From contig PMBM01000187.1 in assembly GCA_003153855.1 (NCBI GenBank), positions 12,958 to 25,615 of the forward strand: a stretch of DNA of 12,658 bases, given 5' to 3'. Source of the DNA: Propionibacteriaceae bacterium. Lineage in GTDB: Bacteria > Actinomycetota > Actinomycetes > Propionibacteriales > Propionibacteriaceae. The position numbers were made by a program, and so were the translations under genes. Below, in pieces: positions 4,909-7,195 of this stretch. Under the pieces are notes generated by a model, which searched no databases, was not told the DNA's origin, and worked only from the letters and a program-made list of their open reading frames with translations. Positions within the stretch are counted from its first letter, which is position 1. The number at the start of each line of letters is the position of its first letter.

Positions 4909-6705
4909 ATGCGCTTCGTCACCCGGCTCCTCGCGACGGCTCGCGAGCTGTGGCCGAGCTATCTGGCCATCACGATCTGCTCGGCCCTCGGCGCGGGCAC
5001 GGCACTCGTCAGCCCCTTCCTCATCAAGGCGGCCACTGACCGCCTGGTGGCGATCTCCGCTGGAGGACCTCGCGTCATCACTCCTCTGGTGTGGCTGGCG
5101 GTGGGGCTGCTCGTCGTCGAGGCGGCCCGCAGCGTGATCTCCAACGTCGCCGGCTACCTCGGCGACGTGATGTCGGCACGGCTACGGGCGACGCTGTCCA
5201 CGCGGTACTTCAACCACCTGCTGCGGCTTCCCCAGAGCTACCTCGACAACGAGCAGACCGGCACGGTCATCGGCCGGCTCAACCGCTCGATCACCGAGGT
5301 CGCGCAGTTCCTCAACGTCTTCGCGAACAACATGTTCCCGATGATCCTGACGCTCGTCGCTTCGCTCGCAGTCATGACCTACTACTCGTGGCCGATCGCC
5401 GTGCTGGTCGTGCTCATGTACCCGGTGTTCACCTGGCTCACGGCGCTCACCTCGAAGAAGTGGCAGGTCATCGAGAAGGCGAAGAACGCCGAGATCGACG
5501 TCGCGAACGGTCGGTTCGCCGAGGCGGTCACGCAGCTCCGCGTGGTGAAGAGCTTCGTCGCCGAGATCCGCGAGCTGCGTCATTTCAGCAGCCGGTACAC
5601 CACGACGATCGGGCTCACCCGCCAGCAGTCCCGGTTCTGGCACCTCATGGACATCGCCCGCCAGGTCGCGCTCAACGTGATCTTCTTCGCGATCTACGTC
5701 GTGATCTTCATCCAGACGGCGTCCGGCTCGTACACGGTCGGCACGATGGTCCTGCTCGTCCAGATGGTGACGATGGCGCGGCAGCCCGTGACGGGCATGA
5801 GCTACCTCGTCGACACAGCTCAGCGCGCGGTGGCCGGGAGCCGTGACTACTTCGCGGTGATGGCCGAGCCTGTCGAGACCGACGTCCTGCCCGTCCCCGA
5901 CGCGACGCCGTGGGCGGCTGTCGAGGGTGCGCCGGCTGTGTCGTTCCGCAACCTCACGTTCGGCTACGCCGACGGTCCGGCGGTGCTCGACGGCGTCGAC
6001 TTCGACATCGCACCCGGCGAGCGGATCGCGTTCGTCGGCGAGTCCGGCGGCGGCAAGACGACGCTGGTGAGCCTGCTGCTCCGCCTGTACGAACCGCGCG
6101 CTGGCCGGATCCTCATCGACGGGCTCGACATCGCCGATGTCGAGCACGGTGCGGTACGGAACCACGTCGGCGTCGTCTTCCAGGACCCGTCCCTGTTCTC
6201 CGGCACGATCAGGGAGAACATCGCGTACGGGGACCCGAGCCGCGACACCGAGGATGCGATCGCGGATGCGGCCCGGCGCGCACACGTGCTGCCGTTCGTC
6301 GACAGGCTGCCGAAGCGATACGACACGGAGATCGGCGAACGCGGTCTCAAGCTGTCCGGCGGCCAGAAGCAGCGCGTGGCCATCGCGAGGGCGCTGCACA
6401 AGGACGCTCCGATCCTCGTGCTGGACGAGGCGACGAGCTCGCTGGACACGAAGGCGGAGCGGCAGGTACAGGCGGGCCTCGACGAGCTCATGACTGGCCG
6501 TACGACCCTGATCATCGCCCACAGGCTGTCGACGATCTCGACAGTCGACCGGATCGTCACCCTGCGCGACGGCCGCGTCGACGAGATCGGCACGCCGGAC
6601 GAGCTCGCCGTCAGCGGTGGCATCTACAGCGAGCTGCTCGCGCTCCAGGCGTCAGCCTCGAAGGCTGACCGGCGTCGCCTCGCCGCGTACGACATCGCAG
6701 GCTGA
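4909..6705 (+). CDS. ABC exporter half-transporter (fused permease and ATPase)
   Basis: This is a 598-aa type IV (MsbA-like) ABC exporter subunit that would act as a dimer in the membrane. The N-terminal transmembrane domain spans about 1-320, with hydrophobic helices near 15-40, 60-85, 135-160, 160-180, 245-270 and 275-300. The nucleotide-binding domain has Walker A GESGGGKTT (377-385), the Q-loop VFQDPSLF, the signature LSGGQ (482-486), Walker B ILVLDEA (502-508) with the catalytic Glu, the D-loop SSLD, and the H-loop His at 538 (IIAHRLST). All ATPase motifs are intact. AGGA six bases before the ATG is a modest ribosome-binding site. No partner half-transporter is adjacent, so a homodimer is likely. 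The substrate (drug, lipid or peptide) cannot be told from sequence. Confidence 0.95.
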   Translation: MRFVTRLLATARELWPSYLAITICSALGAGTALVSPFLIKAATDRLVAISAGGPRVITPLVWLAVGLLVVEAARSVISNVAGYLGDVMSARLRATLSTRYFNHLLRLPQSYLDNEQTGTVIGRLNRSITEVAQFLNVFANNMFPMILTLVASLAVMTYYSWPIAVLVVLMYPVFTWLTALTSKKWQVIEKAKNAEIDVANGRFAEAVTQLRVVKSFVAEIRELRHFSSRYTTTIGLTRQQSRFWHLMDIARQVALNVIFFAIYVVIFIQTASGSYTVGTMVLLVQMVTMARQPVTGMSYLVDTAQRAVAGSRDYFAVMAEPVETDVLPVPDATPWAAVEGAPAVSFRNLTFGYADGPAVLDGVDFDIAPGERIAFVGESGGGKTTLVSLLLRLYEPRAGRILIDGLDIADVEHGAVRNHVGVVFQDPSLFSGTIRENIAYGDPSRDTEDAIADAARRAHVLPFVDRLPKRYDTEIGERGLKLSGGQKQRVAIARALHKDAPILVLDEATSSLDTKAERQVQAGLDELMTGRTTLIIAHRLSTISTVDRIVTLRDGRVDEIGTPDELAVSGGIYSELLALQASASKADRRRLAAYDIAG

Positions 6706-6739
6706 CGCGTCCGTCGGTCCCGGGTCCCTGGGTGGGGCG

Positions 6740-6837
6740 CTGCCGGTTTCTCAAGGGATGTGGTCAAACCTGCACCTCCCATGGCAAATCTGCCGTGGGA
6801 GGTGCAGAAACGCCTACATCCCTTGGGAAACCGGCAG
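6740..6837. repeat. 98-bp near-perfect inverted repeat (palindromic element) between convergent genes
   Basis: Outer arms 6740-6761 and 6816-6837 pair over 22 bp with one T-G mismatch (a G-U wobble in RNA). Inner arms 6770-6786 and 6791-6807 pair over 17 bp with one G-U wobble and a loop of four bases (AATC). Between the two stems is a symmetric 8x8 internal loop (6762-6769 and 6808-6815). Four related boxes alternate in orientation: GGGATGT (6755), ACCTCCC (6774), GGGAGGT (6797) and ACATCCC (6816). AAA/TTT triplets recur at about 6748, 6767, 6787, 6809 and 6829. There is no T-run after the stem on either strand, so it is not a standard intrinsic terminator, although its place between two converging 3' ends would suit a bidirectional one. 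A REP/MITE-like repeat or structured RNA is equally possible. Confidence 0.9.
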
Positions 6838-6871
6838 TGGCAGCGGGACCGTCGAGCGCCGGCAGAGTCCG

Positions 6872-7195
6872 TCACTCGATGTGGAAGACCTCTTCGAGCT
6901 GTACGAACGACTCGTCGGCGGTCTTGTCGCCGATACCGTTGAAGAGGTGCTGTACGGACGCCTGCCAGCGGGCGTTGACCTCTTCGGCCGCCATGGCCTG
7001 CTGCGCCGCGGTCAGGCCGTCGGGCGTCTCGACGTAGCCGAACAGGGTTCCGTCCTCGGCGATGAACAGGGAGTAGTTGTTCCAGCCCGTACGGTGCAGA
7101 GCCTCCTGCATGTCCGGCCAGACGGCACGATGCCGCTCCTTGTACTCCTCGATGTGCTCCTGGGCTACCCGCGTCACGAATCCGACCCGCTGCAT
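6872..7195 (-). CDS. rhaM: L-rhamnose mutarotase
   Basis: This 107-aa protein is a member of the RhaM (YiiL) family, which interconverts the alpha and beta anomers of L-rhamnose and so feeds its catabolism in the cytoplasm. Tyr18 and His22 in YKERHRAVWPDM fall at the same positions as the active-site residues of the E. coli enzyme. GWNNYSLF, EDGTLFGYVE and the Trp in NARWQ are also family hallmarks. The length is normal (E. coli about 104). An AGGA seven bases before the ATG is a good ribosome-binding site. It follows the alpha/beta-hydrolase-fold gene by 18 bp on the same strand, so the two are probably one operon. No rhamnose isomerase, kinase or transporter lies in the window. Confidence 0.93.
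   Translation of the reverse strand: MQRVGFVTRVAQEHIEEYKERHRAVWPDMQEALHRTGWNNYSLFIAEDGTLFGYVETPDGLTAAQQAMAAEEVNARWQASVQHLFNGIGDKTADESFVQLEEVFHIE

Follow-up and report, generated by a model that had tools for sequence, protein, structure and literature searches.

Several kinds of short, dispersed, palindromic DNA are found between bacterial genes, among them miniature inverted-repeat transposable elements (MITEs), enterobacterial repetitive intergenic consensus (ERIC) sequences and bacterial interspersed mosaic elements (BIMEs). A known example in which dispersed bacterial palindromes are kept by a dedicated, vertically inherited enzyme is that of the repetitive extragenic palindromic (REP) sequences and their REP-associated tyrosine transposases (RAYTs). 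Here, we compare with these systems a palindromic element of 96 bp found in a 12,658-nucleotide stretch of contig PMBM01000187.1 from a Propionibacteriaceae bacterium, a stretch that we refer to, at its full length, as the window. This element is probably the non-coding member of a two-part system, composed of the gene for an AbiEi/Vsr-fold protein and of the dispersed hairpin elements that this protein would tend, with REP/RAYT-like habits built on an unrelated nuclease.

RAYT genes are described as always lying between two inverted REPs (PMC2817692), and as single-copy and vertically inherited (PMC8049555); the other REP/RAYT features compared here, including complementary changes that keep the palindrome, come from the same two reports (PMC2817692; PMC8049555). 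Also relevant is the homing endonuclease I-Bth0305I, which is reported to dimerize on a target measuring almost 60 bp (PMC3943268).

A family of near-constant palindromes in the host genome

In the genome from which the window derives (G000; 3.67 Mb, 77.8% complete), the element is present as 28 full copies, plus one truncated copy beside an assembly gap. Because the 28 copies align over 96 columns without a single gap, at a mean column identity of 83%, the unit was defined as the 96 bp from 6741 to 6836. Its two arms change together: 17 of 39 pairs are altered on both sides in some copy, which makes 81 such cells, compared with 34.5 on average after shuffling. Overall, 91.9% of the cells are paired in the 28 copies, versus 86.0% after shuffling, and this figure falls to 37-44% when the partners are slid by 1-3 columns. 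The covariation ends in the central loop. A preliminary description of this DNA, made from its letters alone, had raised the possibility of a palindromic repeat spread through the genome, and had proposed a search for intergenic copies whose arms carry compensatory changes; both are borne out by the G000 copies. The parts of the element in the window are as follows.

6741..6836, no strand: palindromic element of 96 bp, the core in all full copies (gap-free alignment of the 28 own-genome copies)
6741..6761, + strand: outer arm, left (partner 6816-6836; 91.8% of cells paired in 28 copies)
6755..6761, + strand: box 1, GGGATGT
6762..6768, + strand: hinge, left, the internal loop of this copy (alignment columns 22-28, variable; paired in, for example, C129_4567)
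6769..6786, + strand: inner arm, left (partner 6791-6808; both-side changes in 11 of 18 pairs)
6774..6780, - strand: box 2
6787..6790, no strand: 4-nt loop (column 47/50, no covariation, 14 paired versus 15.5 expected; column 48/49, invariant A/T)
6791..6808, + strand: inner arm, right (pairing and covariation across 28 copies)
6797..6803, + strand: box 3
6809..6815, + strand: hinge, right (variable columns, paired in some other copies)
6816..6836, + strand: outer arm, right (pairing across 28 copies)
6816..6822, - strand: box 4

The near-perfect inverted repeat originally proposed at 6740-6837 is real. A repeat search returned 6740-6786 and 6791-6837 as arms of 47 nt, 83% complementary and separated by 4 nt, and 40 of the 49 position pairs of 6740-6837 are Watson-Crick, with both isolated within-stem mismatches being T/G. 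A chance palindrome is excluded by the best 47-bp arm pair of the window, which has 39 pairs against 28 for the best of 20 shuffles, and by an RNA fold of the palindrome with z = -11.4, a stability equaled by none of 200 shuffles. The spacing previously given for the four alternating boxes, with consensus GGGA(T/G)GT and centers 19, 23 and 19 bp apart, and for the five TTT/AAA triplets, starting at 6747, 6766, 6786, 6808 and 6828, was found to be correct, as was the lack of a T-run after the palindrome on either strand. The symmetric 8x8 internal loop of this copy is a hinge that is fully paired in some other copies (for example, C129_4567). The alternating boxes are present again in other G000 copies, which fits the early suggestion of a binding site for a multimeric protein, and at a spacing of about 20 bp they would suit a dimer or a tetramer.

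Other features of the copies are less uniform. Seven of the 28 rows have the motif GTAG within the stem, at columns 20-23, and not at the element end. Nested hairpins within the outer arms are no better than shuffled in G000 (4.07 of 8 pairs, with 157 of 500 shuffled partners as high); in the genus and in the remaining copies they score above all 500 shuffled partners. An additional weak model match at G000:C12:5113-5208 (E 0.035) may be a decayed element. The outer 15-20 bp were also seen alone, repeated and at times in tandem, beside full copies (L057 after 3286, L074 after 4146, L128 before 4047 and L076 before 4033).

A gene for a predicted AbiEi/Vsr-fold protein lies between matching repeats

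A single gene of about 313 codons stands directly between two elements in G000, as well as in genomes G005 and G002. Its counterpart in Nocardioides sp. 21Sc5-5 (L163:6542-7483) is followed by one element, and the other lies past the preceding gene. Structure prediction suggests an AbiEi-like half joined to a C-terminal half that resembles Vsr and I-Bth0305I, and in the latter half D237, E248, D250 and K254 are invariant among 49 close sequences. Pfam AbiEi_4 matches the N-terminus, over its cut-off in one of four partner proteins; the same four had no match in NCBIfam, and sequence search of solved structures gave none for the partner protein. Several database sources label it as type IV toxin-antitoxin AbiEi family. 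Homologues were found in 289 of the 391 sampled genomes of the order, and a search with one member gave 2620 homologues at E<=1e-10; none was detected at E<=1e-5 among 50,697 phage records, and four weak matches among 72,556 plasmid records. The site at which G000, G005 and G002 carry the whole partner gene has, in G004, a remnant of 61 residues between two elements (L136:4025-4476).

The association between gene and repeats extends well beyond these cases. One repeat shared by both flanks of the gene, scoring above every shuffle, was found at 62 of 66 loci, comprising 28 of 30 close loci, which are the best homologue matches, and 34 of 36 distant loci, which were hand-picked, non-randomly, among the matches listed, out of 40 regions (L270-L273 uncounted). 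The same test on neighboring genes was positive in 2 of 55. These flank repeats differ among loci, with a median score of 97.5 within their own locus and of 25 across loci. Of the 30 close loci, 17 have palindromes above all shuffles on both sides and a further 7 on one side; for the 36 distant loci, these numbers are 8 and 13. In the close homologues with palindromes on both sides, the palindrome centers lie at most about 200 bp from the gene, so close that little space is left between the repeats for a second gene, such as one for an AbiEii nucleotidyltransferase toxin. By eye, the outer boxes of some gene-flanking repeats (L206-L209, L213) are direct, not inverted as in the scattered copies, and one distant homologue (L256, in G224) sits between long palindromes of other sequence, of about 109 and 98 bp.

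The scattered elements follow the gene as well. The window-type element is present in 34 of the 37 genomes with a close homologue, against 44 of the 354 others, and in 20 of 24 genomes the best match of the scattered elements is to the flanks of the gene in the same genome. This link was also tested as a prediction in G391, which is outside the 78 positives reported below: the flank repeat of its distant homologue recurs there at 15 further places, at 87-95% identity. One of these is the opposite flank of the gene, another four are within 16 kb, and ten are far off. The gene itself tends to keep its chromosomal location. It lies at shared loci in several groups of genomes, with 59 of 435 locus pairs having common neighbors, and vertical inheritance is suggested by these shared loci. 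In one block, ten loci have common neighbors at 57-99% identity, with most of their element types differing.

Distribution, element types and turnover at orthologous sites

Within the genus, the element family was found in G000 and in six more genomes. It was also found in 11 of 197 genomes of the family and in 78 of 391 sampled genomes of the order, distributed over 8 of 40 genera; the 14 positives among 394 genomes sampled across the class all belong to the same order. Model matches elsewhere mostly span 96 positions, and some 82 to 99. Since about ten candidates per genome were scored in the order- and class-wide model searches, and five in the protein search, an absence in these searches is not firm, and the copy numbers are minima. 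The exact outer pattern recurs in records of Nocardioides sp. 21Sc5-5 (8 of 13 stretches), of two Nocardioidaceae assemblies (3) and of two Propionibacteriaceae assemblies (2), with no matches in viral contigs.

The elements fall into species-specific types. Outer arms are like GGTTTCTCAAGGGATGT in G000, mostly GGTTCACCATGTTAAGT in G004 and G002, and GGTTCATCATGTTAAGT in G003, and the 15 copies of G005 that were compared comprise six of the GGTTTCTCAAGGGATGT kind and nine of the GGTTCATCATGTTAAGT kind. The two types side by side in G005 (L107-L119) perhaps reflect a genome in the middle of a change of type.

Many of these elements nevertheless sit between orthologous genes, and we compared 28 element pairs in which both flanking genes are orthologous. 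For the G000/G003 pair, identity at orthologous sites is 0.537 (n = 3) versus 0.53 for random pairs, with flanking proteins that are 92.7% identical; the corresponding values are 0.545 (n = 2) versus 0.548 for G000/G004, 0.595 (n = 6) versus 0.597 for G000/G005, and 0.61 (n = 1) versus 0.56 for G000/G002. Orthologous copies of the same type, from G002 and G004, give 0.866 (n = 5) versus 0.804, and mean identity of elements within a genome goes from 0.665 to 0.82. Comparison of the copies thus shows that sequence memory is lost at orthologous sites of differing type. An element is present on both sides in 56 of 63 orthologous gene pairs and not in the other 7, the loci having been fetched around elements. 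One gap of G000 (L067, genes 4/3, ortholog of L125:4293) contains a decayed element of the type that is full-length in G003, which looks like an older hairpin population dying out in G000.

The window site itself is occupied differently from genome to genome. The element lies here between two genes that converge on it:

4909..6705, + strand: left neighbor gene, ABC transporter (Pfam ABC_membrane, ABC_tran)
6872..7195, - strand: right neighbor gene, L-rhamnose mutarotase (Pfam rhaM)

The same gene pair is separated by end-to-end gaps of only 21, 41 and 11 bp in G003, G002 and G004, respectively, where the site is empty. An unrelated 22-bp tandem repeat of about three copies lies between the rhaM and ABC genes in G001 (L279), G005 has a different neighbor gene, and no rhaM turned up in G006. 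As sites are empty, retained or with replaced sequence across genomes, we conclude that they are gained, kept and rewritten.

Placement at gene ends and nature of the hairpin

Among 137 placements, based on codon-score gene predictions and including two loci fetched twice (L162 = L108 and L172 = L120) plus one weak second match in L182, convergent and tandem arrangements account for 63 each and divergent ones for 9, with 2 undetermined; one of the 137 overlaps a gene prediction. Relative to 504 element-free gaps (73 convergent, 106 divergent), odds ratios are 5.2 for convergent and 0.27 for divergent gaps; in G000, 11 of the 28 copies are convergent. Within tandem gaps, the copy is closer to the upstream stop in 56 of 63. 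Selection most simply explains why few copies are on the promoter side; the position at gene ends may be due to selection alone or to some preference for terminator hairpins.

The flanks of the copies bear upon this preference. There is no sign of target-site duplication, with direct flank similarity of 7.18 for own and 7.12 for cross pairs (204 of 500 permutations as high). Complementarity between the two flanks is slightly enriched, at 7.77 versus 7.33 (1 of 500 permutations as high), and reaches 9 or more in 42 of 133 copies versus 21% of cross pairs. Over all copies this trend is weak, and so is the case it makes for insertion inside terminator hairpins. The window copy (L056) scores 11 in the same test, owing to two segments that possibly formed the stem of an older hairpin surrounding the element:

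6716..6722, + strand: flank segment complementary to 6844-6850
6844..6850, + strand: partner of flank segment 6716-6722

With respect to the hairpin itself, action as RNA would be expected to leave more G.U than A.C mismatches on the transcribed strand. In the 63 tandem copies, G.T and A.C mismatches number 93 and 101 (p = 0.62), and since they are about equally common when oriented by transcription, an RNA role of the hairpin is unsupported. An early G.T excess, 82 against 48 A.C, was produced by orienting the copies by their similarity to the window copy, and disappears under transcription orientation.

Proposed mechanism and alternative explanations

The AbiEi-like half of the protein would read the repeated boxes, and the protein would recognize elements of its own type when these are folded as hairpins or cruciforms. 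The nuclease half would then cut the extruded hairpin or cruciform, and repair would copy elements into new sites and overwrite old ones. Binding, cutting and copying are inferred, and the copying could proceed by transposition or by break-repair conversion. A more specific version, which we put forward tentatively, as it is somewhat less probable than not to be correct in full, is that the predicted AbiEi/Vsr-fold nuclease, inherited vertically, cuts sites with foreign or decayed hairpins, or gene-end terminator hairpins, after which repair writes the current species-specific element. Tens of sites per genome would thereby evolve in concert, many of them staying put, and each of many actinobacterial nuclease subfamilies would have its own hairpin population. 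Some doubts attach to a system of this kind: co-typing fails in 4 of 24 genomes, a close homologue lacks an element in three genomes and an element lacks a homologue in three others, the sampling of loci was non-random, and there are few orthologous pairs per comparison across types (n = 1-6).

The elements could instead serve the host, as operators, terminator-side sites or chromosome-architecture sites of an AbiEi-like regulator that neither cuts nor spreads them, and whose drift in specificity, together with selection at every site, changes their types. This we regard as improbable. An AbiEi-like DNA-binding half, boxes and length that are conserved in G000, and sites adjoining stop codons agree with it, but it has to accommodate orthologous elements that are no more alike than random pairs between G000 and G003, G004 or G005, despite 83-93% identical flanking proteins, as well as a Vsr-like half with the invariant residues listed above, and a window site that is empty in three congeners. 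Less probable still is a selfish or defense nuclease, restriction- or toxin-antitoxin-like, for which the elements mark self or anchor the gene and dispersal is a by-product. The database label of the protein and the low codon score of its gene in G000 (28 for 313 aa) point in that direction, against which stand the small room for a toxin partner between the repeats and the scarcity of homologues on phages and plasmids.

A structured RNA from the 3' ends of the converging genes, already considered in the preliminary description, or a bidirectional terminator at gene ends, in either case without a dedicated enzyme, would account for the strong hairpin, its compensatory changes, and the convergent and stop-proximal placement. 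However, the mismatch counts of the tandem copies contain no wobble bias, a T-run is missing, the window has no Rfam match at or above the gathering score, and the near-constant length, the species-specific type and the link to a nuclease gene would be left unexplained; this makes such an origin very unlikely. Hardly credible, finally, is an ordinary REP or BIME moved by a RAYT, or the MITE of a classical insertion sequence, even though the palindromes are dispersed and extragenic, a gene lies between matching copies, and GTAG occurs within the stem of some of them. The Y1 (HUH) transposase domain PF01797, which would identify the REP-type mobilizer initially envisaged, was not found in the host genome or in any of the 25 related genomes searched, and was found in 5 of 14 control genomes, so that we reject a RAYT as the partner in these 26 genomes (DDE families were not searched); the partner gene found in its place encodes a predicted nuclease. 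Moreover, the G000 alignment has no GTAG head at the element end, its 96 bp are not the 20-40 bp of a REP, and no target duplication accompanies the copies. A tended two-part system is the account that we favor.

Comparison with known systems

Among the matches listed in the open-access literature, at the level of titles and abstract openings, with subscription journals mostly outside this body, no description was found of the element or of AbiEi/Vsr genes with repeats. Neither the protein nor the element was found linked there to a published system with such habits.

With MITEs, ERIC sequences and BIMEs, the element has in common that it is short, dispersed, palindromic and intergenic, but it differs from them by its near-constant 96 bp, its species-specific sequence and a nuclease-like gene of its own. 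The EDxHD homing endonuclease I-Bth0305I and Vsr share the predicted fold of the C-terminal half, which is here fused to an AbiEi-like half and encoded on bacterial chromosomes, in association with dispersed non-coding palindromes instead of an intron, its nuclease activity being a prediction. Unlike the AbiEi antitoxin of type IV toxin-antitoxin systems, the protein has an extra Vsr-like half and two-sided repeats, with no partner toxin seen between them.

The closest resemblance is to the REP/REPIN-RAYT systems, as described in the reports cited above. Both have dispersed extragenic palindromes with complementary changes that keep the palindrome; a partner gene between copies of its own element type, here with a different enzyme; and vertical inheritance of that gene, read here from shared loci rather than from a gene tree. 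They differ in the partner, here an AbiEi plus Vsr-fold protein, with no Y1 domain found in the 26 genomes searched, and in the element, here 96 bp with four boxes and neither a GTAG nor a CGTC head at its end, compared with a REP palindrome of 20-40 bp. Since the habits are shared but the enzyme is different, the system is REP/RAYT-like in behavior and not a member of that group. If our proposal is correct, an unrelated protein of homing-endonuclease/Vsr fold has the same genomic habits, which would mean that systems of this sort have more than one origin, and would suggest a function for a large protein family now labeled as antitoxin. It would also provide a natural example of a DNA-binding protein whose target sequence seems to shift at many sites together, where recognition and copying are directly testable.
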